Assembly: GCF_004339015.1 (NCBI RefSeq)
Contig: NZ_SMFQ01000002.1
Coordinates: forward strand, 435,351 to 499,350
DNA from: Cocleimonas flava
Lineage (GTDB): Bacteria > Pseudomonadota > Gammaproteobacteria > Thiotrichales > Thiotrichaceae
Length of the DNA stretch: 64,000 bases
Direction of reading: 5' to 3'
The translations under genes and the position numbers were made by a program. The notes beneath the pieces were generated by a model. The model was given only the letters and a program-made list of their open reading frames with translations, ran no database searches and was not told the origin of the DNA. Below are positions 9,277-63,277 of this stretch, piece after piece. Within the stretch, counting starts at the first letter, position 1, and every line of letters starts with the position of its first letter.

Positions 9277-9289
9277 AAGTAGGGGGGTG
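9277..9289 (+). repeat. Dispersed 13-mer AAGTAGGGGGGTG, copy downstream of sixA
   Basis: Exact core with eight A residues at 9261-9268 and a T-run just after. It lies 20 bp past the sixA-like stop and upstream of gatC. Confidence 0.9.
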
Positions 9290-9876: not shown

Positions 9877-9889
9877 AAGTAGGGGGGTG
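9877..9889 (+). repeat. Dispersed 13-mer AAGTAGGGGGGTG, copy upstream of sixA
   Basis: Exact core with eight A residues at 9862-9869, the GCCC spacer and a trailing T-run. It lies between the sixA-like start and the terminator at 9906. Confidence 0.9.
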
Positions 9890-10584: not shown

Positions 10585-10680
10585 ATTTATTCTCAAATAA
10601 ACGGACATATTTTTTCGTATCTATCATTGTAGTATAACTGATTAGCCTCAAACAATGCTAGATACGACCAAAATAGTGTT

Positions 10681-11319
10681 TTAAAGATCAATCCCGGACT
10701 GTGCTTTAAAACCGGCACGATACGCATGTTTTACATCTGCGATTTCCGAAACAGTATCGGCCAAATCAACCAGATATTCGTCTGCGCCTCTACCAGTGAC
10801 CACAACATGCTGATCAAAGGGTCTATTCTGGATATCATCTAACACGCTATCCTGATCTAAATAGTTATAGTTTAAAAGATAAGTCAGCTCATCCAGCACT
10901 ACCAAATCATAGCTTGGATCTTGCAACATGCTTTGTGCGACCTTCCAGCCATTTTCCGAGGTTTCTATATCCTGTGTTCTGTCTTGCGTATTCCAGGTAA
11001 ACCCATCTCCCAACACATGCCAGTCCATTTTTTCATGCGATGAGAAGAACGCCTCTTCGCCGGTATCGGTTCGGCTCTTAATAAACTGACACACGCCTAC
11101 TTTCATACCATGTCCCAATGAACGCGCCACCATGCCAAATGCCGAGCTGGATTTTCCTTTGCCATTTCCTGTTAAAACAAGCATGAGGCCTTTTGATTTA
11201 TCAGACTTCTCAATTGCGCTATCGATGATTTTTTTCTTACGCTCCATACGAACTTTATGGCGTTTATTCCTCTCTGCTTCTTTTTGTACAGATTCTTTTG
11301 TTACCTTATCTTGTGCCAT
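10681..11319 (-). CDS. cobO: Cob(I)yrinic acid a,c-diamide adenosyltransferase
   Basis: CobO/BtuR-type enzyme that transfers the adenosyl group of ATP to cobalt in reduced corrinoids. The P-loop reads GNGKGKSSSAFG after LMLVLTGN, and the VVLDELTYLLNY block matches the family's Walker-B region. Length of 212 residues fits, with a basic N-terminal helix (residues 1-45) typical of CobO. AAGGAA lies six bases before the ATG. It is divergent from cobU and followed by membrane paralogue 1. Confidence 0.95.
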   Translation of the reverse strand: MAQDKVTKESVQKEAERNKRHKVRMERKKKIIDSAIEKSDKSKGLMLVLTGNGKGKSSSAFGMVARSLGHGMKVGVCQFIKSRTDTGEEAFFSSHEKMDWHVLGDGFTWNTQDRTQDIETSENGWKVAQSMLQDPSYDLVVLDELTYLLNYNYLDQDSVLDDIQNRPFDQHVVVTGRGADEYLVDLADTVSEIADVKHAYRAGFKAQSGIDL

Positions 11320-11369
11320 GTTTGTTCCTTAGAATTTAAATTTTGGGGCAGATTACGGGAGTATAATTC

Positions 11370-11390
11370 ATCTTTGTGTATAACAAAGAT
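11370..11390. promoter_or_regulatory. Inverted repeat in the cobO/cobU divergent promoter region
   Basis: ATCTTTGT and ACAAAGAT are separated by five bases, about 50 bp from the cobO start. TATAAT at 11362 is a possible -10 element for the plus strand. No B12 box or other riboswitch motif is seen between 11320 and 11492. An operator or leader hairpin is possible. Confidence 0.3.
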
Positions 11391-11492
11391 AGAAACGAGA
11401 CATATTCTTTAGCCTACCTGCCTACAGATCACTTTTACAAATGACTTTTACCGCTATACTACTGACGACTTACTTTTTCTTGCGATAATGTT

Positions 11493-12071
11493 GTGACTCA
11501 AAAAATACCCTCCACCCCATCTAGCAGCTTAATACTTGGCGGCGCACGCTCTGGCAAAAGCAGTTTCGCGGAGAATCTTGCCAAAGAATCTGGGCTGGAC
11601 GTTATTTATCTGGCGACAGCAAATGCGTGGGATGAAGAGACCAAACAACGTGTTGAAAAACACAAATCTGATCGACCAAGTTCATGGAAAACCATTGAAG
11701 AGCCGATTCATTTAGCATCGTGTTTATTGCGGCATTCCAGACCTGAGAAAATCATCATCGTTGACTGCCTGACGATGTGGCTTAACAATTTATTGATGTT
11801 AGAGAATCCTGCGCAATTAAGACAAGAGCTTGATGATTTCCTCGACTGTGTTTCTAAACTTCAAGGCAGGGTCATCTTTGTTAGCAACGAAGTTGGCATG
11901 GGCATAATCCCCTTAGGCGAACTGACCAGAAATTTTGTTGATGAATCTGGTCGCCTACATCAAAAATTAGGCCATTTGGTGGAGAATGTCACCCTGATTG
12001 TGGCGGGCATCCCTTTAGTTGTTAAACCTCAACGTCATCAAACCACAACAATAATTAACGATAATTACTAA
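11493..12071 (+). CDS. cobU: Adenosylcobinamide kinase / adenosylcobinamide-phosphate guanylyltransferase
   Basis: CobU (CobP) phosphorylates adenosylcobinamide and then adds GMP, the first step of nucleotide-loop assembly. A GTG start at 11493 is used. The P-loop is GGARSGKSSFAE near residue 20, and VDCLTMWLNNL and FVSNEVGMGIIP are characteristic. Length is 192 residues. It opens a plus-strand run cobU-cobT-cobC-cobS-cbiB-cobD with overlaps or gaps of at most about 20 bp. Confidence 0.95.
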   Translation: MTQKIPSTPSSSLILGGARSGKSSFAENLAKESGLDVIYLATANAWDEETKQRVEKHKSDRPSSWKTIEEPIHLASCLLRHSRPEKIIIVDCLTMWLNNLLMLENPAQLRQELDDFLDCVSKLQGRVIFVSNEVGMGIIPLGELTRNFVDESGRLHQKLGHLVENVTLIVAGIPLVVKPQRHQTTTIINDNY

Positions 12072-12092
12072 GATATTCAAATAGAGACACTT

Positions 12093-13139
12093 ATGAACTG
12101 GATAACCACTCCCTGCCTTAATCGTGATTCACAATACAAAGAATATGCGATCGAAAGACAGTCGCAGCTCACCAAGCCACCAGGATCATTAGGGGAGTTA
12201 GAAAATATTGCAATTCGCTTAGCTGATTTACAGCAAACCAAAATCCCTTCAGCCAGCGATATTAGTATTGCAGTATTTGCCGCGGACCATGGTATTGCCA
12301 AGGAAGGAGTTTCTGCTTTCCCACAGGAAGTGACTGCACAAATGGTGATGAACTTCCTCAGTGGCGGTGCTGCAATCAGTGTATTGGCCAAACAATTAAA
12401 TGCTAATCTGGAAATTGTTGATGTGGGTATTTTGACACCACTCCCAGAACAATCAGGTCTGATTATTGAACGCGCTGGCGCTGGTACAGAAAACGCTATC
12501 AATGGACCCGCGATGACAGAAGATCAGCTGGAAATAGCACTAACAGCGGGACATCATGTTATCGAAAGAGCCACCGAACGCGATGCGAAAATATTTATTG
12601 GTGGCGAAATGGGTATCGCCAATACCACCAGTGCTTCTGCATTGTATTGTGCGTTATTAGGGTTAACGCCCGAGGAAACAACAGGTGCAGGCACAGGGCT
12701 GGATGACGCGGGCATCCAACACAAAACCAAAGTCGTGGAGCAAATAATAAAAACCCATCATAAGTGGGGGGGTGACACTAAAGCCTTATTGCAACACATG
12801 GGTGGATTTGAGATAGCTGCTCTCACGGGCGCTTATATTCATGCCGCTCAAAATGGTTTAGCAATTATCGTAGATGGATTTATCAGTTCAGTTGCTGCTT
12901 TATGCTCAGTCAAAATCAATCCTTCTGTGAATGATTACTTATTCTTCTCGCACCTCTCGGCAGAGCACGGTCATCAAATAGTTTTAGAATCATTAAAGCA
13001 GAAACCTTTACTGGATTTGGGCATGCGTCTTGGTGAAGGAAGTGGCGCTGCGGTTGCTGCTAATTTGCTGATATCAGCCTGCACATTGCACAATCAAATG
13101 GCGACGTTTGCTGAAGCTGCGGTTGCAACTCAAATATAA
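12093..13139 (+). CDS. cobT: Nicotinate-nucleotide-dimethylbenzimidazole phosphoribosyltransferase
   Basis: CobT makes alpha-ribazole phosphate from nicotinate mononucleotide and the lower ligand base. Its 348 residues show TKPPGSLGELE at the N-terminus, FAADHGIAKEGVSAFP, GGEMGIANTTSASA and the glutamate-containing GEGSGAAVA near the C-terminus, which is the catalytic-base region. The stop overlaps the cobC start by one base. Codons 224-228 (KWGGD) carry a one-mismatch copy of the dispersed 13-mer, with an A-rich stretch just before it. Confidence 0.97.
   Translation: MNWITTPCLNRDSQYKEYAIERQSQLTKPPGSLGELENIAIRLADLQQTKIPSASDISIAVFAADHGIAKEGVSAFPQEVTAQMVMNFLSGGAAISVLAKQLNANLEIVDVGILTPLPEQSGLIIERAGAGTENAINGPAMTEDQLEIALTAGHHVIERATERDAKIFIGGEMGIANTTSASALYCALLGLTPEETTGAGTGLDDAGIQHKTKVVEQIIKTHHKWGGDTKALLQHMGGFEIAALTGAYIHAAQNGLAIIVDGFISSVAALCSVKINPSVNDYLFFSHLSAEHGHQIVLESLKQKPLLDLGMRLGEGSGAAVAANLLISACTLHNQMATFAEAAVATQI
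12762..12774 (+). repeat. One-mismatch copy of the dispersed 13-mer inside cobT
   Basis: AAGTGGGGGGGTG differs from the core at position 5 (A to G). An A-rich segment at 12747-12753 and ACCCATCAT before the core resemble the extended consensus. It encodes Lys-Trp-Gly-Gly in frame. Confidence 0.55.
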
Positions 13140-13765
13140 TGGCTCATTCATCAACGACTAAATCAACCGTGACATCGAACATCACAACACTGGATTTGTT
13201 ACGCCATGGCAAGTTAGACACGCCTGGCATATTTTGCGCAGAGGCTTCTACGCCGGTAAGCGCTGAAGGCATGCAGGATTTAATCAATACGACCAAGGAT
13301 GGCAGTTGGGATATCATTATTAGCTCACCCCAGCAACGCTGTGTCGTGTTTGCACAGAAACTTTCAAAAGACAAAAACTGTCCATTAGTGATTGATGATC
13401 GCTTCAAAGAGATGAACTTCGGTGACTGGGTGGGTAAAAAGTCGGATGAGTTATGGCAGCAATATCCTGAACAATACCAGCAACTATGGCAAACTCCAGA
13501 CGACTTTGTCGCGATCAACGGCGAATCAATGCAGCAGTTTGCTGAGCGTATTCACTCGGGTTTACAAGACATTTTAAGCAGCTATCAAAATCAATCGATT
13601 CTGGTGATCACTCATGGTGGCGTTATTCGTCAGGTGCTATCTAAAGCCTTAGACCTTGATACCCTAGCGATGTTGAAGTTTTCAATTCATTACGCGCAAC
13701 TCAATCGCCTTTTTTGTTATGAAGATGGCAATTTCTCTTTAGAGTTTTTAGGCAGAAAAAACTAA
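13139..13765 (+). CDS. cobC: Alpha-ribazole phosphatase
   Basis: A histidine-phosphatase family member of 208 residues. The catalytic motif is LLRHGKLDTPG, with LVITHGGVIRQ carrying the second histidine and IISSPQQRC in between. Within this operon it is best read as CobC, which dephosphorylates alpha-ribazole 5-phosphate or adenosylcobalamin 5-phosphate. It overlaps both neighbours by single bases, which suggests translational coupling. A generic phosphoglycerate-mutase-like phosphatase is the alternative, but context favours CobC. Confidence 0.9.
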   Translation: MAHSSTTKSTVTSNITTLDLLRHGKLDTPGIFCAEASTPVSAEGMQDLINTTKDGSWDIIISSPQQRCVVFAQKLSKDKNCPLVIDDRFKEMNFGDWVGKKSDELWQQYPEQYQQLWQTPDDFVAINGESMQQFAERIHSGLQDILSSYQNQSILVITHGGVIRQVLSKALDLDTLAMLKFSIHYAQLNRLFCYEDGNFSLEFLGRKN

Positions 13766-14505
13766 TGAAACTTCAGGATTACAAAACACCCTTCCTGCTG
13801 GCTTTATCGTTGTTAACACGAATCCCGGCAGGTTCATTTACTGAAATCACGGATAAAGACTCTGGAAAATCAGCCCTGTTATACCCCTTGGTTGGTTTGA
13901 TTATAGGGGCAATCATCTATTTACCTGTTTTGTTATTCCCCAATGCTCCTTCCTTGGTGCTCGCTGCAATCATTGTCACTATATGGGCGATAATCACAGG
14001 CGGTCTTCACTTGGATGGTTTGACAGACAGCGCCGATGGTTGGCTAGGCGGTTTGGGTGATCAGGAAAGAACCTTAAAAATAATGAAAGATCCTGTGGTA
14101 GGTGCGGCAGGTGCTATCGCCCTAGTCTGTTTTCTCCTACTAAAATTTGTATCCGTTACAGCGCTGATTGAAAGTGATTTAGCCTGGTTGATCATGGTTG
14201 CCCCTTTACTAGGCAGAACAATGATCTTGCTGACGTTTAAAACGACGCCTTACGCAAACAAGCAAGGCATGGCAAATACTGTTGTGGAAAACCTGCCTGA
14301 AAACACAAGCTGGGCGGTTCTGATCGCAGGTGCTGTGATCGGGTTTTTCGTTTCATTCTGGGGTGTTTTACTGGTTCTTATTGGCTTCTATTTTCTACGT
14401 CGATTAATGCTCAAACGCTTGGGCGGTTGCACAGGTGATACGGTAGGAGCAACCGTTGAAATCAGTGAAATGCTATTCATGCTGGGCGCTGTTTTAGTCG
14501 TATGA
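13765..14505 (+). CDS. cobS: Adenosylcobinamide-GDP ribazoletransferase (cobalamin synthase)
   Basis: CobS joins adenosylcobinamide-GDP to alpha-ribazole in the inner membrane. The 246-residue protein shows the TRIPAGSF start, the metal-binding GGLHLDGLTDSADGWLGG block, and several transmembrane helices. GGCTGDTVGATVEISE near the C-terminus is a conserved loop. It overlaps cbiB through ATGA. Confidence 0.96.
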   Translation: MKLQDYKTPFLLALSLLTRIPAGSFTEITDKDSGKSALLYPLVGLIIGAIIYLPVLLFPNAPSLVLAAIIVTIWAIITGGLHLDGLTDSADGWLGGLGDQERTLKIMKDPVVGAAGAIALVCFLLLKFVSVTALIESDLAWLIMVAPLLGRTMILLTFKTTPYANKQGMANTVVENLPENTSWAVLIAGAVIGFFVSFWGVLLVLIGFYFLRRLMLKRLGGCTGDTVGATVEISEMLFMLGAVLVV

Positions 14506-15428
14506 TGTATTGCCTTTTTGTTGCTCCTTTAGCGTTATTATTAGATTTTCTATTAGGCGAGCCCTCAAGGTTTCATCCACTAATAGGATTTGGTCACCTT
14601 GCCAATTGGCTCGAGCAAAAGCTGAATCGAAAAAACGCGGGGTCTCAATTGCTCTGGGGAATACTTGCCTGGGGCCTAGCTGTGATACCGCTCGTGCTAA
14701 TTACAGCGTTTATAAGCAATTCATTAGACTTGATTTTTCAAATACTGTTTGCAGCAATTTACGGCTGGCTAGCAATAGGCTGGAAAAGTTTGCTTCAACA
14801 TGGTCAGGCCGTTTTTGATGCCTTATCGCAAAATGATTTAGCGCAGGCACGTATCAAAACCTCTTATATAGTAAGCCGGGATACCAGTGAATCTGACGAA
14901 ACAGCCTTGAGCAAAGCAAGCATCGAATCACTTCTGGAAAATGGCTCTGATGCGATTTTTGCGCCACTCTTTTGGCTGGTCATTTTAGGCGCACCGGGCG
15001 TTATTCTTTATCGGTTAAGCAATACGCTAGATGCCATGTGGGGTTACCACAATGAGCGATTTGAATATTTTGGCAAATTCACAGCACGCATTGATGATGT
15101 AATGAATTATATTCCTGCACGTCTCTGCGCCCTACTCTATAGCATTTGTGGAGATACGAAACAGGCTCTTCATGCATGGAAAACACAAGCCAGTTCCTGG
15201 TATAGCCCAAATGCTGGAGTAGTGATGGCAACAGGTGCGGGAGCATTGAATATCAGCTTGGGAGGTTCGGCAATTTATCACGGACATTACAAAGAACGCC
15301 CTACTCTAGGCACGGCTACAGAACCATCATTTACAGATATTCAACGTGCAATGTCACTGATTGATAACGGCGTTTATTTGATCGCTACTGTTTTGGTTTT
15401 TATGGGAGTTCTTTACTATGCCTTCTAA
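14502..15428 (+). CDS. cbiB: Adenosylcobinamide-phosphate synthase
   Basis: CbiB (CobD in alphaproteobacterial naming) attaches aminopropanol phosphate to adenosylcobyric acid at the inner membrane. Family marks are LLGEPSRFHPLIGFGHLANWLE near the N-terminus, YIVSRDTSESDETALSKASIES in the middle, and the NTLDAMWGYHNERFEYFGK block. The 308-residue length is normal. It overlaps cobS by 4 bp and cobD by 11 bp. Confidence 0.95.
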   Translation: MMYCLFVAPLALLLDFLLGEPSRFHPLIGFGHLANWLEQKLNRKNAGSQLLWGILAWGLAVIPLVLITAFISNSLDLIFQILFAAIYGWLAIGWKSLLQHGQAVFDALSQNDLAQARIKTSYIVSRDTSESDETALSKASIESLLENGSDAIFAPLFWLVILGAPGVILYRLSNTLDAMWGYHNERFEYFGKFTARIDDVMNYIPARLCALLYSICGDTKQALHAWKTQASSWYSPNAGVVMATGAGALNISLGGSAIYHGHYKERPTLGTATEPSFTDIQRAMSLIDNGVYLIATVLVFMGVLYYAF

Positions 15429-16566
15429 AAAAGAACCTTCTAAAAAAATGCCTTCTGACAACTTTTCTAAAAACTCTACTAGTAACACACCTGTTAACAC
15501 TCCCATTTACCAAGCAGCAAAAAACAACCACGGCGGCCAGTTAAAGCAAGCCAGTGAACAATACAAGATCCCCGAAGATCAATGGCTAGACCTATCTACT
15601 GGTATTAGCCCCTTTGTATACCCTCTGCCCGAGGTGCCGAATGAATGCTGGCAACGCTTACCAGAAACCAACGATGGTTTAGAAGAAGCTGCAAGCAATT
15701 ATTATGGCAGCCCTTTTTTACTGCCAGTTGCAGGTTCGCAAGAAGCGATCCAAGGCTTACCCAAACTATTTAAGCAAAAATTGAGCGTAGGCATTATCAA
15801 ACCTGCTTACCACAGTCACCAAAAAGCATGGGAAGATGCCGGGCATGAGATTGTGCTAATTGATCACGAGATGATTACATCAAGTCCAGATTCGGCTTCA
15901 AACAAAGACGTAATAGCATCAATCGATATATTGATTATCGTTAATCCAACGAATCCAGCAACACACCTCTACACCAAAGAAACACTTTCGAGCTTGCATC
16001 AACAGTTAAGCAAAAAAGGGGGCTGCCTAATCATTGACGAAGCCTTCATCGATGCCACACCCGAGTACAGTTTAATAGAACAAACCCCGTTACAAGGACT
16101 GATTGTGTTGCGCTCAATCGGAAAATTCTTTGGCCTTGCAGGAATTAGGTTGGGATTTGTCTGGGCTGAGGAGAATATTTTACAAGCGCTTGCTAAACAG
16201 CAAGACGATTGGTCTGTTAGCCACCCTGCGCGCTGGGCAGGCAAAGTGGCGCTTGCAGATAAAACTTGGCAACAACTACAAAGAGAGCGATTAATACCTG
16301 CCGCATTACGTTTAAAGGAATTGCTGTCTAAATCATTTAGCAAAAAAGTCCCTGTAAGTAGGGGGGTGGCTTTAAATACAGCGTTATTTGCTTATTTAGA
16401 AATAGAAACCGCCGCAGAGATTTATCAACTCCTTGCAGCACAAGGCGTGCTGGTGAGGTTGTTTAACGAATCAAATTATCAAAACAATGCGCTTCGTTTT
16501 GGGTTACCGGCCACTGAATTCGAGTGGACTCATTTGGAACAAGCCCTTGCAACGTTAAACAGCTAA
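15418..16566 (+). CDS. cobD: Threonine-phosphate decarboxylase (PLP enzyme)
   Basis: A 382-residue aminotransferase-fold enzyme (CobD in Salmonella naming, CobC in Pseudomonas denitrificans naming) making aminopropanol phosphate for CbiB. LDLSTGISPFVYPLP opens the conserved part, IIDEAFID and the PLP-lysine motif LRSIGKFFGLAGIRLGF follow. The first 35 or so residues are a low-complexity Ser/Lys/Pro/Thr extension from a short DNA repeat; an internal ATG at 15448 may be the real start. An exact copy of the dispersed 13-mer, with its A-tract, lies in frame at residues 314-317 (Ser-Arg-Gly-Val). It is the last gene of the cob run and is convergent with cobQ. Confidence 0.92.
   Translation: MPSKKEPSKKMPSDNFSKNSTSNTPVNTPIYQAAKNNHGGQLKQASEQYKIPEDQWLDLSTGISPFVYPLPEVPNECWQRLPETNDGLEEAASNYYGSPFLLPVAGSQEAIQGLPKLFKQKLSVGIIKPAYHSHQKAWEDAGHEIVLIDHEMITSSPDSASNKDVIASIDILIIVNPTNPATHLYTKETLSSLHQQLSKKGGCLIIDEAFIDATPEYSLIEQTPLQGLIVLRSIGKFFGLAGIRLGFVWAEENILQALAKQQDDWSVSHPARWAGKVALADKTWQQLQRERLIPAALRLKELLSKSFSKKVPVSRGVALNTALFAYLEIETAAEIYQLLAAQGVLVRLFNESNYQNNALRFGLPATEFEWTHLEQALATLNS
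16356..16368 (+). repeat. Dispersed 13-mer AAGTAGGGGGGTG, copy inside cobD
   Basis: Exact core with full extended context: six A residues at 16342-16347, the GTCCCTGT spacer, and a trailing CTTT, all read as codons of the threonine-phosphate decarboxylase. Confidence 0.85.
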
Positions 16567-16604
16567 TAACGAATAAATTTAAGCACTGAATAAACCAGCG
16601 AATA

Positions 16605-18089
16605 TCACTGTTTTTGCGTGATGCTGATGATATCGTCCATTGCTAAGCTGTCTTCAATCGCATCTGCCAAACGCTCTAATTGAGATTCTCGCTGAGTATT
16701 GATGTCGAACTGTTCGATGGTTGTAGCCCCCGCCCAATCCAGTATTGCTTGCAGACTATCCGGCGTATCGAAAAATCCATGCAAATAGGTACAAAGGATT
16801 TGATCATCTGTAGATATCGCGCCGTCAGGCTTAGCATCCTCATGATTGCTATCCAGTAAAACTGCTGGATTTTCCAATGCCTTGCCGTGCGTAATACCTG
16901 CGTGGATTTCATAGCCTGTAATTGGCGCGTCAGTAAAAGCGAGTTTTCCACCGACGTTTGTCAGTTGTTTTTCTGCCTGAAGCGTTGTGTGGAAATCCAT
17001 CAAGGCCAGACCTATGTGGTCAGTGATTTCACCCTCTATACCCAGTGGGTCAGATATTGTTTTGCCTAGCATCTGGAGTCCACCACAAATACCGATAAGC
17101 TTACCGCCATATCGTAGGTGTTTATTAATCGCTTCTTCCCAGCCTTGAGATTTTAGCCATTGCAGATCAAAACCGACATTTTTACTGCCGGGTAAAATAA
17201 TTAAGTCGGCGGGCGGTATCGTTTCTAGATGAGAAATATATTCAACGTCTAATTCGGGATGCAATCGTAACGGCTCAAAATCGGTGTGATTGCTGATATG
17301 CGGCAATCGCGGAATGATGATTTTAAATTGCTGATTATCGTCAGCTTTTACATTCTCGGGGACGGCATCTTCCGCATCCAAATGTAAACCATGCAAATAA
17401 GGCAATACGCCTAAAACAGGTTTACCGGTCTTTTCTTCTAGCCAATCCAGACCGCCTTGTAATAAAGCAATATCGCCACGAAAACGATTGATGACAAAGC
17501 CTTTGACCAAGGCTTGCTCTTCTTCACTCAGTAATTCTAATGTGCCTACCAAATGTGCAAACACACCACCTTTATCAATATCCGCAATTATAATGACAGG
17601 ACAATTAGCTTTCAGAGCAAACCCCATATTAGCAATATCACCTTTACGCAGATTAATTTCTGCTGGGCTTCCTGCGCCTTCTACAAGGATATGTTGGTAT
17701 TGCTCACTGAGCATATTGAACGAGTCAAACACAGCTTCCGCTGCTTTAGGCTTATATTCGTGGTAATCCAGCGCTTCCAGATTACCAATCGAGTGGCCTT
17801 GCAGGATAACCTGCGCTCCCGTATCGGTATTCGGCTTTAACAACACAGGATTCATATGCACGCTAAGTGGCACATTAGCGGCTTGCGCCTGTAGTGCTTG
17901 GGCACGCCCTATTTCGCCACCATCGGGAGTAACCGCGCTATTTAGCGCCATGTTTTGGGGTTTAAACGGCGCGACAGACATGCCACGCCGATAAAAGACT
18001 CGACACAAGCCAGCAACCAGAATGCTCTTTCCAGCATCGGAGGTTGTGCCTTGCACCATTAGTGCACCAGTGAGTTCTTGTTTAGCCAT
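16605..18089 (-). CDS. cobQ: Cobyric acid synthase
   Basis: CobQ (CbiP) amidates four carboxylates of adenosylcobyrinic a,c-diamide using glutamine and ATP. The N-terminal P-loop-like domain opens with [12 protein letters not shown] and continues to [12 protein letters not shown]. The C-terminal glutamine amidotransferase domain carries the nucleophile cysteine in [11 protein letters not shown] and [10 protein letters not shown]. Length of 494 residues is normal. It follows membrane paralogue 2 and btuB on the same strand, so it probably belongs to the riboswitch-controlled transcript. Confidence 0.96.
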
Positions 18090-18148
18090 TTTCGGGATAG
18101 CTTCTAAAACTCTAATATCGGAATAAGAATATTAAGTACAAAAATGAC

Positions 18149-18730
18149 TTATGAAGTACGAGCTTCTTGACTAAATTTGCTAGCTTGAATAAATGCCCAA
18201 TGAACGACTGCAGCCATTGCCAGGTACATCACGGTTGTCTTCATAAACATCGGTAAGAATCTGGCAATACGACCGGCAAACTCAGCCATGCTTGTTTCTG
18301 CAAAGCGACCCGAGAAGAAGTAGAAGCCGCCGCTCGAAATAATATTACAGACCGTTATTCCAACAACTGCAGCACCGATAAAGTAAAGCAATCCACGTAG
18401 ATTTTCGCTGTAATGATTAGAGAACCATCGCCCAGCCAACCATAAAGAGCCATAAGCTGGCGCTAAGAATGGATATGATATGGTAAAGCAGAAACTTTCT
18501 CCGCCCTTTGATTCAATCACAATCAGATCGACAATAAACGCAGCGAGTAAAAAAATCGGTAAACCTATCGCAGAGCGCAGATAAAAACCAAGGATAAAGA
18601 AAATTGCCCAGGAAGCATCTTGAATATGGTGAAAAAAATGACTGCGGGTAGTGATCAAAATCAGCATTAACAAACCACCAATCAAAAACGTTTGGTTTTT
18701 AGTTAAGGAACTCGCTTTAAATTCAGACAT
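18149..18730 (-). CDS. Small polytopic membrane protein of cobalamin context (paralogue 2)
   Basis: About 193 residues with five or six hydrophobic segments, homologous along its length to the protein at 9994-10584. GTGGAG lies six bases before the ATG at 18730. It sits between btuB and cobQ in the same direction, so riboswitch control is expected. A role in moving cobalt or corrinoids across the inner membrane is an inference from this position; no ECF ATPase or BtuCD genes are in the window. I do not recognise a firmly named family. Confidence 0.7.
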   Translation of the reverse strand: MSEFKASSLTKNQTFLIGGLLMLILITTRSHFFHHIQDASWAIFFILGFYLRSAIGLPIFLLAAFIVDLIVIESKGGESFCFTISYPFLAPAYGSLWLAGRWFSNHYSENLRGLLYFIGAAVVGITVCNIISSGGFYFFSGRFAETSMAEFAGRIARFLPMFMKTTVMYLAMAAVVHWAFIQASKFSQEARTS

Positions 18731-18766
18731 GTTGGACTCCACTTTAATAGGGTTGTACATACAACA

Positions 18767-18820
18767 CCTCTCTGCTTTCTTTGGTACTTATAAAAGCCCT
18801 GATTAAATCAGGCAGAGAGG
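18767..18820 (-). other. Nested hairpin between btuB and membrane paralogue 2
   Basis: CCTCTCTGC (18767-18775) pairs with GCAGAGAGG (18812-18820), and inside this is a small CCTGATT/AATCAGG hairpin followed on the minus strand by GGCTTTTAT. It may partly terminate the btuB transcript or process the message, lowering expression of the downstream genes. Confidence 0.45.
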
Positions 18821-18845
18821 TTATCAACTAACAAATTTGAGACGC

Positions 18846-20699
18846 TTATTTAGGTGCGTATTTAACAGTGACCAATCCGTTTATGCCGTCCTGGTTATAA
18901 CCAGAAGCCAGAGAGTAGTCTTTGTCTAGGGCATTAGCAATCTTTGCACCTACGCTCCAGTCTTTAGAAACTGCGTAGTTAGTACGAAGATCTAACGTTG
19001 TAAAGCCGCCTAATTTTACTGAATTATCCACATTTGCGTATCGTTCAGACTCGGCATGCACAGTTGCACCAATAGTGAATTTACCAAACTTACGATCCAC
19101 ATCGATATTTAAGATTTGCTCAGAACGATTTCTTAGTATTTTGCCTTTATTGTCCCCAGTGCGATTTTCTGGCTTTTGCAAAGTCACATTAGCAGCCACA
19201 TCAAAACCCGCAAGTTTTGTTGCAAAAACGGCTTCTATTCCACGAATACGCGCTTCATCAATATTACTAACAGGGAAACCAGCGATTAAATTATCGATAT
19301 CATTCTGGAACACGTTAACTTCCCAGGAACCGTTGCTGAACTTACCATCAAGACCCAATTCATAGTTTTCACTTTTTTCAGGCAACAAATCAGTGCTACC
19401 AAAACCAGGATAATAAAGCTGATTAAATGTAGGTGCTTTAAAAGCAGTCCCATATGAAGCCTTCAAGCGCATTGAATCGGTTAATTCCTGACCAAATGCG
19501 ATGCCACCTGTGGTTTCTGAACCAAACTGCTCGTTATCGTCGTAACGTAAAGACGTATCGATATGTGTCTTATTCAGTTGTGTTGCATAACTAGCGAATA
19601 CGCCGGTGTTATCGCGTGAAGTAACATCATATTCTGTATTGCTATCTACCTTTGCATCAACCCAGTCAGTACCCAACAATAGGTTGTTATTATTGTTGAT
19701 AGCATAATTTGCGATTAAAGAGGCTGTATTTTGCTTGGTAGCGAAGTCACCGGTGAATGTGCCATCTTTAAAGTTATCGTTTTCATCTTTTGATTGACCA
19801 ACGGTAAAACGTAAGTTCAGCTTATCTGTTACGTCAGCACTGAGGTTTGCACTAATAACTTCTTGTACAAAGTCAGACTCATTCTGAAAACCACCATCAA
19901 AATCAGTACTACCTTCCGCTCTTAAAATACTTACTCCACCTTTTACAGCGTCTGAGAATTTATGCCCCACATTCAGAGAAACACTCTCTCTTTCGTAGCC
20001 ATCTCTATCCGGCTCATCGGCGAAACAGCCTGATGATGTTGAGTTACATGCATCAATACCATCTGTTTCTTCTTTAGAAACATTCAATTGGTATGTGGTT
20101 TTGTTGTTACCACCGGAAAGATTTACATTGCCTTTGTAGGTACTGTTGCTGCCTGCTGATAATGAAATCGATGGGCTAAAACCCTTCTGACCTTTTTTAG
20201 TGAATATCTGAATAACACCACCAATCGCTTCTGATCCGTAAAGACTAGAACGTGGGCCTCTAACAACTTCTATGCGATCGATTTGATCTACTGGAATATG
20301 TTGAAATGATGTTGAACCCAATGTTGCAGAACCTAGTCGAACGCCATCAACCAAAACCAATACATGACCTGAGTTTGTGCCACGTAAGAAAACAGAGGTG
20401 TTCTTACCTAAGCCACCCGTGTTTGAAATATTCAAACCTGGTACACGTGTAAGCGCCTGCTCAACGCTTAGATCCTGATGGAGACTGATATCTTCTTGAG
20501 TGATAACAGTAACTGGAGCCAAGGTTTTATTTGCAGTTACAGGACGACGATTTGCCGTAACGGTTAATTCGAGACTGCCATCATCACTAAGTGAAATGTT
20601 GTCAGACTCATCTGCAAAAACTGGAGATTGAAACGACGCAAGCATAATCGCAAGCACAGAAAAAGGAGCTACTTTTGTAGCTACAGGGGAGTATTTCAT
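18846..20699 (-). CDS. btuB: TonB-dependent vitamin B12 receptor
   Basis: A 617-residue outer-membrane receptor. It has a signal peptide ending around residue 29 and a TonB box-like segment (ELTVTANRRPV) about residues 45-55. The plug domain follows (ITQEDISLHQDLSVEQALTRVPG, then RIEVVRGPRSSLYGSEAIGGVIQIFTK). The 22-strand barrel ends in TVKYAPK. Assignment as BtuB rather than a general siderophore receptor rests on size and on the cobalamin riboswitch in its leader. Downstream on the same strand are membrane paralogue 2 and cobQ. Confidence 0.93.
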   Translation of the reverse strand: MKYSPVATKVAPFSVLAIMLASFQSPVFADESDNISLSDDGSLELTVTANRRPVTANKTLAPVTVITQEDISLHQDLSVEQALTRVPGLNISNTGGLGKNTSVFLRGTNSGHVLVLVDGVRLGSATLGSTSFQHIPVDQIDRIEVVRGPRSSLYGSEAIGGVIQIFTKKGQKGFSPSISLSAGSNSTYKGNVNLSGGNNKTTYQLNVSKEETDGIDACNSTSSGCFADEPDRDGYERESVSLNVGHKFSDAVKGGVSILRAEGSTDFDGGFQNESDFVQEVISANLSADVTDKLNLRFTVGQSKDENDNFKDGTFTGDFATKQNTASLIANYAINNNNNLLLGTDWVDAKVDSNTEYDVTSRDNTGVFASYATQLNKTHIDTSLRYDDNEQFGSETTGGIAFGQELTDSMRLKASYGTAFKAPTFNQLYYPGFGSTDLLPEKSENYELGLDGKFSNGSWEVNVFQNDIDNLIAGFPVSNIDEARIRGIEAVFATKLAGFDVAANVTLQKPENRTGDNKGKILRNRSEQILNIDVDRKFGKFTIGATVHAESERYANVDNSVKLGGFTTLDLRTNYAVSKDWSVGAKIANALDKDYSLASGYNQDGINGLVTVKYAPK

Positions 20700-20733: not shown

Positions 20734-20779
20734 TTTAAAAAGTGAGCAACGAATCAGCATAACGCTTTCCCGTTGTCGT

Positions 20780-21045
20780 TTTCGCTAAGGCCGGTCTCCG
20801 GGCTTATGAATAGTGGCGAATGCCGATTAATACGTTTCTCCTTCCCACGCTATAAAAATTGCACAGTGGATATGAAACGACTAATTAGAATCAAAAAACA
20901 ATCCCTACAAAAAGCCTCGTAAGTAGGGGGGTGCCTTTAAGATTCTGTATTCAATTACCGTTGCGGGGGCAGCTCTGGAATTATGTTTAAGTAGCAAAAT
21001 CACTAACTAAATCATTCACCAGCTTCCCGTTTAATCCATTTGCTA
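20780..21045 (-). promoter_or_regulatory. Cobalamin riboswitch upstream of btuB
   Basis: On the minus strand the order of conserved elements matches cobalamin aptamers. It begins with ACGGGAAGCTGGTG, then CCAGAGCTGCCCCCGCAACG ending in GTAA, then CCACTGTGC, then GTGGGAAGG, and GCCACTA. The B12 box AAGCCCGGAGACCGGCC is at 20789-20805. A 6-bp stem (AGAATC at 20887-20892 with GATTCT at 20941-20946) closes a peripheral arm between the GGTAA and CCACTG elements; its loop contains a full copy of the dispersed 13-mer. Adenosylcobalamin binding would lower expression of btuB and probably the two genes after it. End points are approximate. Confidence 0.92.
20921..20933 (+). repeat. Dispersed 13-mer AAGTAGGGGGGTG, copy inside the riboswitch
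   Basis: Exact core with an A-run at 20909-20913, GCCTCG spacer and trailing CCTTT. It lies in the loop of a peripheral arm of the cobalamin aptamer, so it is transcribed in reverse as part of the btuB leader. Confidence 0.9.
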
Positions 21046-21139
21046 ATGCATCTGGACACCTAAAGCAGAGCGAAAGAATAGTGTGTTTAATGCAGGGTGT
21101 CTAGTGAAAGACCTTGAAACAGAAAGATTTAGCTTAAAA
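21046..21139. other. btuB promoter region beyond the riboswitch
   Basis: About 94 bp between the riboswitch and the ClC channel stop. It contains a GACACC/GGTGTC inverted repeat (21055 and 21096). The promoter of the btuB leader should be here, but I cannot assign a convincing -35/-10 pair. Together with the riboswitch it accounts for the 440-bp gene-free stretch from 20700. Confidence 0.4.
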
Positions 21140-27495: not shown

Positions 27496-27508
27496 CACCC
27501 CCCTACTT
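27496..27508 (-). repeat. Dispersed 13-mer AAGTAGGGGGGTG, copy after the DUF523 gene
   Basis: Exact core on the minus strand with TGCCTGT spacer and a run of six A at the far side (27517-27522 read in reverse). It begins 35 bp past the stop. Confidence 0.9.
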
Positions 27509-28715: not shown

Positions 28716-28728
28716 CACCCCCCTACTT
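28716..28728 (-). repeat. Dispersed 13-mer AAGTAGGGGGGTG, copy after the LCIB-like gene
   Basis: Exact core on the minus strand, 12 bp past the stop, with GCCCC spacer and six A residues on the far side (28737-28742 read in reverse). Confidence 0.9.
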
Positions 28729-38117: not shown

Positions 38118-38130
38118 AAGTAGGGGGGTG
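38118..38130 (+). repeat. Dispersed 13-mer AAGTAGGGGGGTG, copy after the adenylate cyclase
   Basis: Exact core 17 bp past the cyclase stop, with AAGAAAGTGCCTAT before it and CCTTA after. Confidence 0.9.
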
Positions 38131-39301: not shown

Positions 39302-39314
39302 CACCCCCCTACTT
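39302..39314 (-). repeat. Dispersed 13-mer AAGTAGGGGGGTG, copy upstream of the propeller gene
   Basis: Exact core on the minus strand, eight bases upstream of the propeller gene's ATG. GCCCTAT spacer and seven A residues lie at the far side. Confidence 0.9.
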
Positions 39315-39545: not shown

Positions 39546-39558
39546 CACCCCCCTACTT
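39546..39558 (-). repeat. Dispersed 13-mer AAGTAGGGGGGTG, copy upstream of hisB
   Basis: Exact core on the minus strand with GGCCCCA spacer and a short A-run. It lies 78 bp before the hisB start. Confidence 0.88.
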
Positions 39559-45439: not shown

Positions 45440-45452
45440 CACCCCCCTACTT
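45440..45452 (-). repeat. Dispersed 13-mer AAGTAGGGGGGTG, copy between terminator and lysE-type gene
   Basis: Exact core on the minus strand with ATGGCTCA spacer and an A-run on the far side. Confidence 0.9.
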
Positions 45453-46242: not shown

Positions 46243-46255
46243 AAGTAGGGGGGTG
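46243..46255 (+). repeat. Dispersed 13-mer AAGTAGGGGGGTG, copy after the lysE-type gene
   Basis: Exact core 13 bp past the stop; seven A residues and CGGCCCCT precede it and GGGTTTT follows. Confidence 0.9.
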
Positions 46256-50706: not shown

Positions 50707-50755
50707 GCACCTCCCTAAATAGGCATTAAAAAAAACGCCTATAAGTAGGGGGGTG
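50707..50755. repeat. Inverted pair built on the dispersed 13-mer
   Basis: An exact core at 50743-50755 with GCCTAT before it faces a shortened partner GCACCTCCCTAAATAGGC at 50707-50724. The two arms form an imperfect hairpin with an A-rich loop, just downstream of phoR, and could end that transcript. Confidence 0.8.
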
Positions 50756-52090: not shown

Positions 52091-52787
52091 CTAATTTTTC
52101 AGTAAAGCGATAACCTGCGCCCCTCACCGTCTTTAACATGTCATCAAGCTCATAAGGTTTGAGCACTTTACGCAAACGCAGAATATGGACATCGACGGTA
52201 CGCTCATCAATAAACGTGCTTTGTCCCCAGACTTGATCTAACAGTTGCGCTCTGCTGTGTATTCTTTCTGGCTTTCGCATAAAGTAATGCAATAAACGAA
52301 ACTCTGTTTGACCAATATCCACAGTGGCATCATTGATCAAAAGCGAATTATTTTCCAGGTTAATCACCAACGAACCTTTATCTGACTTACGCGTGATTGT
52401 TTTATCCACACTTAAACCTTGCGATCGTCTGATTAATGCTTTGATTCTTGCATCTAGCTCTTTTAATGACACGGGTTTCGTCATGTAGTCATCCGCACCA
52501 ACTTCAAGACCTTTTACCTTGTCCATTTCTTCGGCGCGCGCTGTAAGCATCAAGATAGGAATATCTCGTTGAATTTTATTTTTTCGTATTTGCTTGATAA
52601 TCTCGGGACCACTGATATCCGGCAACATCCAATCCAGCAAAATAAGGTCTGGGTTCTTCTCGGCAAGCATATCAAATGCCCCCCCCCCACTTTCAGCGGC
52701 TTTTACCTTATAGCTCTTGCCCAGCAGAAACCCTTGTAACATTTCTCTTATGGCATGATCGTCTTCAACTAATAAAATTTCAAACAT
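52083..52787 (-). CDS. phoB: Phosphate regulon regulator PhoB, copy 2
   Basis: A 234-residue PhoB with receiver (LLVEDDHAIREML, Asp in LILLDWMLPDISG, Lys in YMTKPVSLKELDARI) and winged helix (GQTEFRLLHYFMRKPERIHSRAQLLDQVWG, TVDVHILRLRKVLKPY). Its overlap with phoR makes it the cognate regulator. Residues in KAAESGGGAFDML are coded by an uninterrupted run of ten G (52679-52688), a slippage-prone tract early in the receiver. It differs clearly from the PhoB-type protein at 47599. Confidence 0.95.
   Translation of the reverse strand: MFEILLVEDDHAIREMLQGFLLGKSYKVKAAESGGGAFDMLAEKNPDLILLDWMLPDISGPEIIKQIRKNKIQRDIPILMLTARAEEMDKVKGLEVGADDYMTKPVSLKELDARIKALIRRSQGLSVDKTITRKSDKGSLVINLENNSLLINDATVDIGQTEFRLLHYFMRKPERIHSRAQLLDQVWGQSTFIDERTVDVHILRLRKVLKPYELDDMLKTVRGAGYRFTEKLDG
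52679..52693 (-). repeat. G10 tract inside phoB, degenerate 13-mer copy
   Basis: Ten G residues on the coding strand preceded by AAAGT. Compared with the dispersed core AAGTAGGGGGGTG it differs by two substitutions (A to G, T to G), and AAAAGCC lies upstream as in the extended consensus. It may be a decayed copy, and is a potential frameshift hotspot. Confidence 0.5.
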
Positions 52788-58682: not shown

Positions 58683-58696
58683 CACCCCCCCTACTT
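58683..58696 (-). repeat. Dispersed 13-mer variant with one extra G, between pstS and gpmI
   Basis: AAGTAGGGGGGGTG has seven instead of six G residues. TGTCCCA spacer and six A at the far side follow the extended consensus. Confidence 0.75.
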
Positions 58697-58816
58697 TGGG
58701 ACACTTTTTTAGCTTGAATTTGGTATAAACAGCGCTACAGACTTGTAATAGTGAATATTTAACACAATACAGTTATTATAGCCCGCTTATATAAAGCACA
58801 ACCTTAGGGAAATAAA

Positions 58817-63217: not shown

Positions 63218-63277
63218 AGCCACCCCCCTACTTAGAGGCACTTTTTTAAAAAAGTGCCTCTAAGTAGGGGGGTGGCT
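63218..63277. repeat. Perfect 60-bp palindrome of two 13-mer copies
   Basis: Two complete extended copies face each other: cores at 63221-63233 (minus) and 63262-63274 (plus), joined through TTTTTTAAAAAA. All 30 bases per arm pair. Transcribed from either side it would act as a terminator with a U-run at its centre only, so its ability to terminate is uncertain. It lies between the antiporter start and the UbiH-type gene stop. Confidence 0.97.

Follow-up and report, generated by a model that had tools for sequence, protein, structure and literature searches.

An uptake-signal-like element family with species dialects and a one-base strand rule in Cocleimonas, and its copy in a btuB cobalamin riboswitch

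We propose, with a probability of roughly 0.55, that the 13-mer in the cobalamin riboswitch preceding a btuB-like gene is a passenger copy of an uptake-signal-like sequence family, one type of which, with T directly after the core, is also constrained to point from the replication origin to dif. The riboswitch copy is most likely a passenger and not a working part of the switch. The main interest lies beyond this copy, in the element family with its dialects and in a strand rule that turns on one base. The window, to which plain coordinates refer, is the whole stretch of 64,000 nucleotides analysed from the Cocleimonas flava genome (G000); other G numbers denote congeners, C numbers contigs and L numbers single loci. 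The riboswitch and its surroundings consist of the following features, all on the minus strand:

18846-20699, minus: btuB-like outer-membrane receptor of 617 aa, downstream of the riboswitch (open reading frame; putative name)
20772-21078, minus: cobalamin riboswitch aptamer RF00174 (cmscan, 74.6 bits, E 1.6e-16, model positions 1-189 of 189)
20826-20838, minus: P7 3' strand GAAACGTATTAAT (predicted fold)
20874-20886, minus: P7 5' strand AATTAGTCGTTTC, adjoining the arm on its 3' side in the RNA (predicted fold)
20887-20946, minus: additional arm at the P6-P7 joint, with AGAATC/GATTCT as closing stem (predicted hairpin, -18.6 kcal/mol)
20903-20908, minus: GTAGGG, predicted partner of core CCCTAC (20928-20923; predicted fold)
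20909-20913, minus: the element's second T-tract (TTTTT; core positions +20 to +24), in the register common to the dialects
20921-20933, minus: 13-bp core CACCCCCCTACTT of an A-type element, the next base being A (sequence)
20961-20973, minus: conserved GCTGCCCCCGCAA, which we take to be the B12 box, 5' of the arm in the RNA (sequence)

The initial annotation had placed a copy of the 13-mer CCCCCCTACTTAC (20919-20931, minus strand) inside a btuB cobalamin riboswitch, and the covariance-model search that it proposed agrees with this. The RF00174 match at 20772-21078 on the minus strand spans the copy, which lies between P6 and P7, so that aptamer parts flank it on both sides and the aptamer is not confined to one side of 20900-20940. 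The match covers the full model, exceeds the gathering score of 31.5 bits, has the btuB-like frame downstream and is the sole one found in the genome; the best relatives of the btuB-like protein reach 47% identity. While the locus resembles RF00174 over its full length, it differs by the extra P6-P7 arm with the element. The stem described for this arm exists (20946-20941 with 20892-20887) and appears in the predicted fold; it is not conserved, the arm of the sister genome G007 being shorter and lacking AGAATC/GATTCT. The motif had further been assigned to the loop of the arm: it does lie within the arm, but its CCCTAC is predicted to be paired. Folded alone, the arm is more stable than most shuffles (z -2.6; 4/200 equally good), and its inner 44 nt are no better than shuffles (z 0.16, 108/200). 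The C6 run may, as suggested earlier, alter folding or ligand response; when the aptamer is folded in full (z -1.67; 7/100 shuffles equally good), the arm stays a separate hairpin beside P7. The P7 helix is our own assignment, since part of the arm is treated as the next helix by the covariance model.

Among the 12 genomes of the congener set, G000 included, nine contain a riboswitch match, eight of them above the cut-off. At the nine loci with a B12 box, the distance from the box to P8 is 48 nt in G004, 49 nt in G001 and 89-179 nt in the remaining seven. In those seven of the nine riboswitches, the P6-P7 joint holds an element of the same family: that of G007 is degenerate with two mismatches, those of G003 and G011 have the opposite orientation, and G002, G009 and G010 carry palindromic element pairs, each in its own dialect. 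G004 and G001, with just 4 and 8 family-pattern matches genome-wide, have neither an element nor an arm at the joint, which bears out the view that the copy occupies a variable position of the aptamer (armless in 2 of 9). Relatives with an equally long arm and no motif had been named as a counter-argument. None was found among the nine loci of the genus. Outside it, the B12 box matched the pattern at 30 of 51 btuB loci, and at the 27 measurable ones the distance from the box to GGGAAGG ranges from 58 to 165 nt (median 74), compared with 59 nt in G004, 63 nt in G001 and 105-181 nt in six measured element-bearing congeners. The longest, L064, exceeds the riboswitch studied here (165 against 127 nt) without the exact core, so that length at this joint is not unique to the motif, although L064 contains six consecutive C or G at that place, as does one other of the 30 loci (L033). 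The 11-base word CCCCCCTACTT was absent from all 51 outside loci. Taken together, the B12-box distances within and outside the genus indicate that the P6-P7 joint tolerates length.

All seven congeners that combine a B12-box riboswitch with more than 100 elements have one of these elements at the joint, and this may also point to a use for it at that place. If the arm were a functional, selected part of the B12 riboswitch of the genus, the stability of the whole arm relative to shuffles would fit as well. We nevertheless regard this explanation as hardly probable, given that sequence, orientation and arm structure vary between species and that the aptamer scores are highest for the two armless riboswitches (113.5 and 108.5 bits, against 30.2 to 76 in the others). 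The btuB tree, in which two outgroup proteins fell inside the genus, was rejected as a genus phylogeny and hence as a basis for counting gains of the element. The literature searched on repeats in cobalamin riboswitches contained nothing relevant.

Some of these loci show peculiarities of their own. The riboswitch match L017 (G010:C19) has only 30.2 bits, extends little beyond the B12 box and is followed, past the first P8 strand, by sequence that is not aptamer-like. L018 (G009) and L019 (G002) are short cobalamin-riboswitch-like matches of 26.2 and 25.1 bits, below the cut-off and without a standard B12 box. In 40 kb of G007:C29, window positions 10593-20607 have no match while both flanks do, and about 1.9 kb stand there instead. 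G007 and the window agree in the btuB leader and signal peptide, and the remainder of btuB is unmatched; it looks as if btuB and a 10-kb region with a cobQ-like frame were exchanged.

The core CACCCCCCTACTT occurs in 721 exact copies in the 4.49-Mb genome, about one per 6 kb, and the reversed pattern not once. Words of the core head the 12-mer list of a 400-kb sample. In the window, the 13-mer with up to two mismatches is found 19 times (shuffles: mean 0.54, largest 2). We distinguish copies with T after the core (AAAGTAGGG, T type) from those with A (TAAGTAGGG, A type). Besides the riboswitch copy, the window holds the following cores, identified by sequence and, for the first, also by homologue alignment:

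2189-2201, plus: T type, in dinB (encodes SRGVV), without T-tract
9277-9289, minus: A type
9877-9889, minus: A type
16356-16368, minus: A type, within a called open reading frame
27496-27508, plus: A type
28716-28728, plus: T type
38118-38130, minus: A type
39302-39314, plus: A type
39546-39558, plus: T type
45440-45452, plus: T type
46243-46255, minus: A type
50743-50755, minus: A type
63221-63274, no strand assigned: inverted pair of A-type elements, a palindrome

The A type makes up 93 of 209 sampled copies and is thus about as abundant as the T type. Perfect copies outnumber those with one mismatch by 79 to 18 in 464 kb, the excess expected of a USS-like sequence; the commonest one-mismatch form, a T-to-C change giving CCCCCCCACTT for CCCCCCTACTT, accounts for 11 of the 18. 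Window positions 12760-12772, 52682-52694 and 58685-58698 hold core variants, namely CCCCCCCACTT forms and one copy with seven C. With a pattern that covers the dialects, more than 100 matches were obtained in 9 of the 12 congeners, and one to three in 7 of 51 genomes from other genera of the family; the motif is plentiful solely in this genus among the genomes searched. The dialects of seven genomes (n = 6 to 209 copies each) have one register: a C-run, a T-tract at positions 11-16 and a second T-tract at 21-26. The first tract is independent of the anchor word solely in G002, G009 and G010; in G000, G007, G003 and G011 it is shorter and part of that word. The two T-tracts, 3' of the core and about one helical turn apart, correspond to the arrangement of Pasteurellaceae-type USS. 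In G010 (L118-L122) the elements are often long palindromes with arms of about 30 bp and differing loops. Separately, overlapping 12-mers (e.g. CACTCGTGGGGA, CGTGGGGATGAA) occur 40 times in a 40-kb sample of G009 (L124-L128), in a CRISPR-array-like manner. Judged by title and start of abstract, literature matches to the exact motif words were just human or vertebrate gene studies.

How the copies arose is best seen where they lie in genes, which we called with a simple longest-frame script and no gene finder. Of the 209 sampled copies, 14 are inside called frames, and the 805 frames of at least 200 aa contain nine cores, compared with a mean of 0.017 and a largest value of 1 in 60 synonymous resamplings. 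Solved homologues align gap-free at the core-encoded peptides of DNA polymerase IV (DinB, SRGVV), TsaB (LKVGGC) and UDP-2,3-diacylglucosamine hydrolase (LpxH, VSRGVS). Because there is no gap at the encoded peptide, these three copies arose by substitution, as uptake sequences do, also in coding regions, by mutation and not by insertion; the comparison covers three of the nine gene copies and does not settle the origin of the intergenic ones. At 15 comparable sites in G007, taken as those anchored on both sides, the exact core is kept at 11, the others having 1, 2, 3 and 3 mismatches, and no clean empty site appeared among the matches listed. As unanchored copies were dropped, empty sites in diverged spacers could be missed, and since G007 carries the motif at these sites too, gap-free alignments leave an older insertion possible. 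For this reason distant homologues were compared for the three gene copies.

The earlier suggestion that the motif settles in sites of low constraint therefore holds for its distribution, with 195 of 209 copies outside called frames, and not for settling by insertion, of which neither the 15 sites nor the three gene copies give a sign. A short mobile repeat of the REP/REPIN or MITE kind, inserted into the riboswitch, would account for hundreds of mostly extragenic copies, for the 15 inverted pairs among the 209 and for the long palindromes in G010. The 179 of 209 copies that are not in an inverted pair speak against it, as do the missing empty sites and insertion-free genes, and the distribution of the transposase domain does not follow the motif: Y1_Tnp was unmatched in G000 and in the motif-rich G003, G006, G008 and G011 (completeness 80-99%), while the 7 of 12 congeners with a match include motif-rich and motif-poor ones. 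We consider such an origin highly improbable. A REP/RAYT origin in particular was rejected in the search of the 12 congeners, in which no RAYT (Y1_Tnp) was matched in G000 at E 0.001.

Spacers between convergent genes hold 63 of the 195 intergenic copies with 14.9% of the intergenic bases, and divergent spacers 23 with 24.0%. The former enrichment, together with the T-tract 3' of the core, would suit a family of intrinsic transcription terminators, in which case the riboswitch copy would attenuate btuB. Compared with shuffles, the hairpins have a small excess of stability (mean z -1.1 in the A type and -1.2 in the T type), five or more pairs form in 62 of the 195 copies, and A-type copies far from the origin run with co-directional genes by 22 to 8. 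However, the mean energies are just -3.0 (A) and -4.4 kcal/mol (T), A-type copies near the origin stand 9:12 with respect to gene direction, the terminator scan raised no flag at the riboswitch site, and far T-type copies follow replication and not genes, all 19 of those between co-directional leading-strand genes pointing against the genes. A terminator function is thus quite improbable. As a terminator or RNA-hairpin family in general, the element was rejected by folding and mutual information: the 195 copies have no long-range covariation, and the strong dependencies are between neighbouring columns. The gene copies, the conservation in G007 and these neighbour dependencies together favour a protein-recognised DNA motif that is maintained in place over a hairpin RNA or a transposon.

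The orientation of the elements was related to replication in a sample of 1.264 Mb of the 4.49 Mb. A dnaA match lies at C1:968702-970033 (325.7 bits, below the model cut-off, which no control genome reached) and a dif candidate at C2:116878, with two mismatches to what we take to be the E. coli dif 25-mer; the GC skew changes sign near both. Far from the origin (714 kb), the G-rich strand of the T type is leading in 60 and lagging in 2 copies, whereas the A type stands at 27 to 28 (Fisher 1.1e-9). Near the origin (550 kb), the counts are 33:21 for T and 18:20 for A type. This zone, 600-1150 kb, was set after seeing the data; the distance bins, which do not depend on it, give 10:7, 17:11, 14:3, 9:2 and 19:0 for the T type on C1 with increasing distance from the origin, and the 260 kb of C2 around dif give 24:0. 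Polarity switches between the nearest T-type copies, 568 bp before and 4.5 kb after the dif candidate, and both far exceptions lie in C1 1150-1340 kb. Far T-type orientation ignores gene direction: whereas the copies between leading-strand genes point against the genes, 12 of 13 between lagging-strand genes point with them. Inverted T-T pairs are all six near the origin, and five of six A-A pairs far from it. In the riboswitch copy it is the C strand that is leading. This is the non-permissive direction, in which 28 of 30 far copies are of A type; that it is A type itself is therefore as expected.

These data bring the T type close to the chromosome-orienting sequences. KOPS and AIMS have a strand bias that is directed to dif, reverses there and is lost near the origin, according to the excerpts of PMC5993296 and PMC2680272, and the T type behaves in the same way while the A type does not. 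The family could be primarily of this kind, read by FtsK or another translocase, with uptake playing no role and with the A-type copies as inactive relatives. Shorter words would agree, since outside elements GGGNAGGG stands at 16:0 far from the origin, and RAAGNAGGG (36:10) and YAAGNAGGG (12:12) mirror the T/A rule, at p 0.029 with a grouping chosen after seeing the counts. So would the polarity of unpaired elements judged by contig GC skew in small samples (11:1 in G002, 7:0 in G003, 3:1 in G010, 2:1 in G009 and 12:5 in G007); by the same measure, again in a small sample, T-type elements of G007 stand at 17:3 and A-type ones at 4:4. Yet the A type is about equally abundant, conserved and unpolarised, and the T type does not become more abundant towards the terminus (62 copies in 714 kb far from the origin, 54 in 550 kb near it), as it would for KOPS/AIMS. 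KOPS are described as 8-bp words, with no T-tracts mentioned in those excerpts; the element, which is longer and mostly intergenic, is AAGTAGGG and not GGGNAGGG. An orienting signal as the primary role of the whole family is thus unlikely.

The closest anatomical likeness that we see is to uptake signals, as far as tested. In the available portion of PMC1626085, the USS of Pasteurellaceae consist of a core with a pair of AT-rich segments spaced by about one helical turn, perfect copies far outnumber those with one mismatch, copies arise by mutation and not by insertion, and subclades have their own forms. About 10% of uptake sequences form inverted repeats and they have no orientation bias, as the available part of PMC1939737 states. 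The element shares the core with two downstream AT-rich segments, the perfect-copy excess, the dialects, the mutational origin, seen in genes, and some inverted pairs (30 of 209 copies); its A type also has no orientation bias, which the T type (60:2) has. It differs in core and lineage and in having one strand-polarised subtype. Its density is lower than the value close to one per kb given for USS and DUS in the same portion of PMC1626085, and far fewer copies are genic than the 65% and 35% in reading frames of two known species (PMC1939737, in part), so that in density and coding share it does not behave like an uptake signal. The DUS of Neisseriaceae likewise come in species dialects with a common invariant part (PMC3630211, accessible text). 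Their sequence is another, and they have no flanking motifs in the PMC1626085 excerpt. ComEC does not discriminate, being found in 11 of the 12 congeners whether these are rich or poor in the motif.

We thus propose a dispersed DNA motif that would be kept by sequence-specific recognition and not by transposition. The C-run core and the two T-tracts would be recognised by a receptor belonging to the machinery of DNA uptake, and transformation would keep spreading and repairing copies, chiefly in unconstrained DNA. T-type copies are under the further constraint of facing dif from the origin, like KOPS/AIMS, possibly through reading by FtsK. The riboswitch copy would ride along, probably neutral for the switch, in a P6-P7 joint tolerant of extra sequence, where the predicted fold makes it a side hairpin of its own. 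More tentatively, and with the odds somewhat against it, we speculate that this is a further independent lineage of uptake signals in which one base after the core adds an FtsK-orienting role, joining transformation to chromosome segregation. In the literature searched, judged by title and start of abstract, no uptake sequences were reported outside Pasteurellaceae and Neisseriaceae.

From the riboswitch copy one learns at which place an aptamer can accommodate such a sequence. The difference of one base between polarised and unpolarised elements amounts to a natural experiment on the sequence features that a DNA translocase recognises, and a further uptake-signal lineage with dialects, if true, would make the origin and change of such signals testable by comparison.
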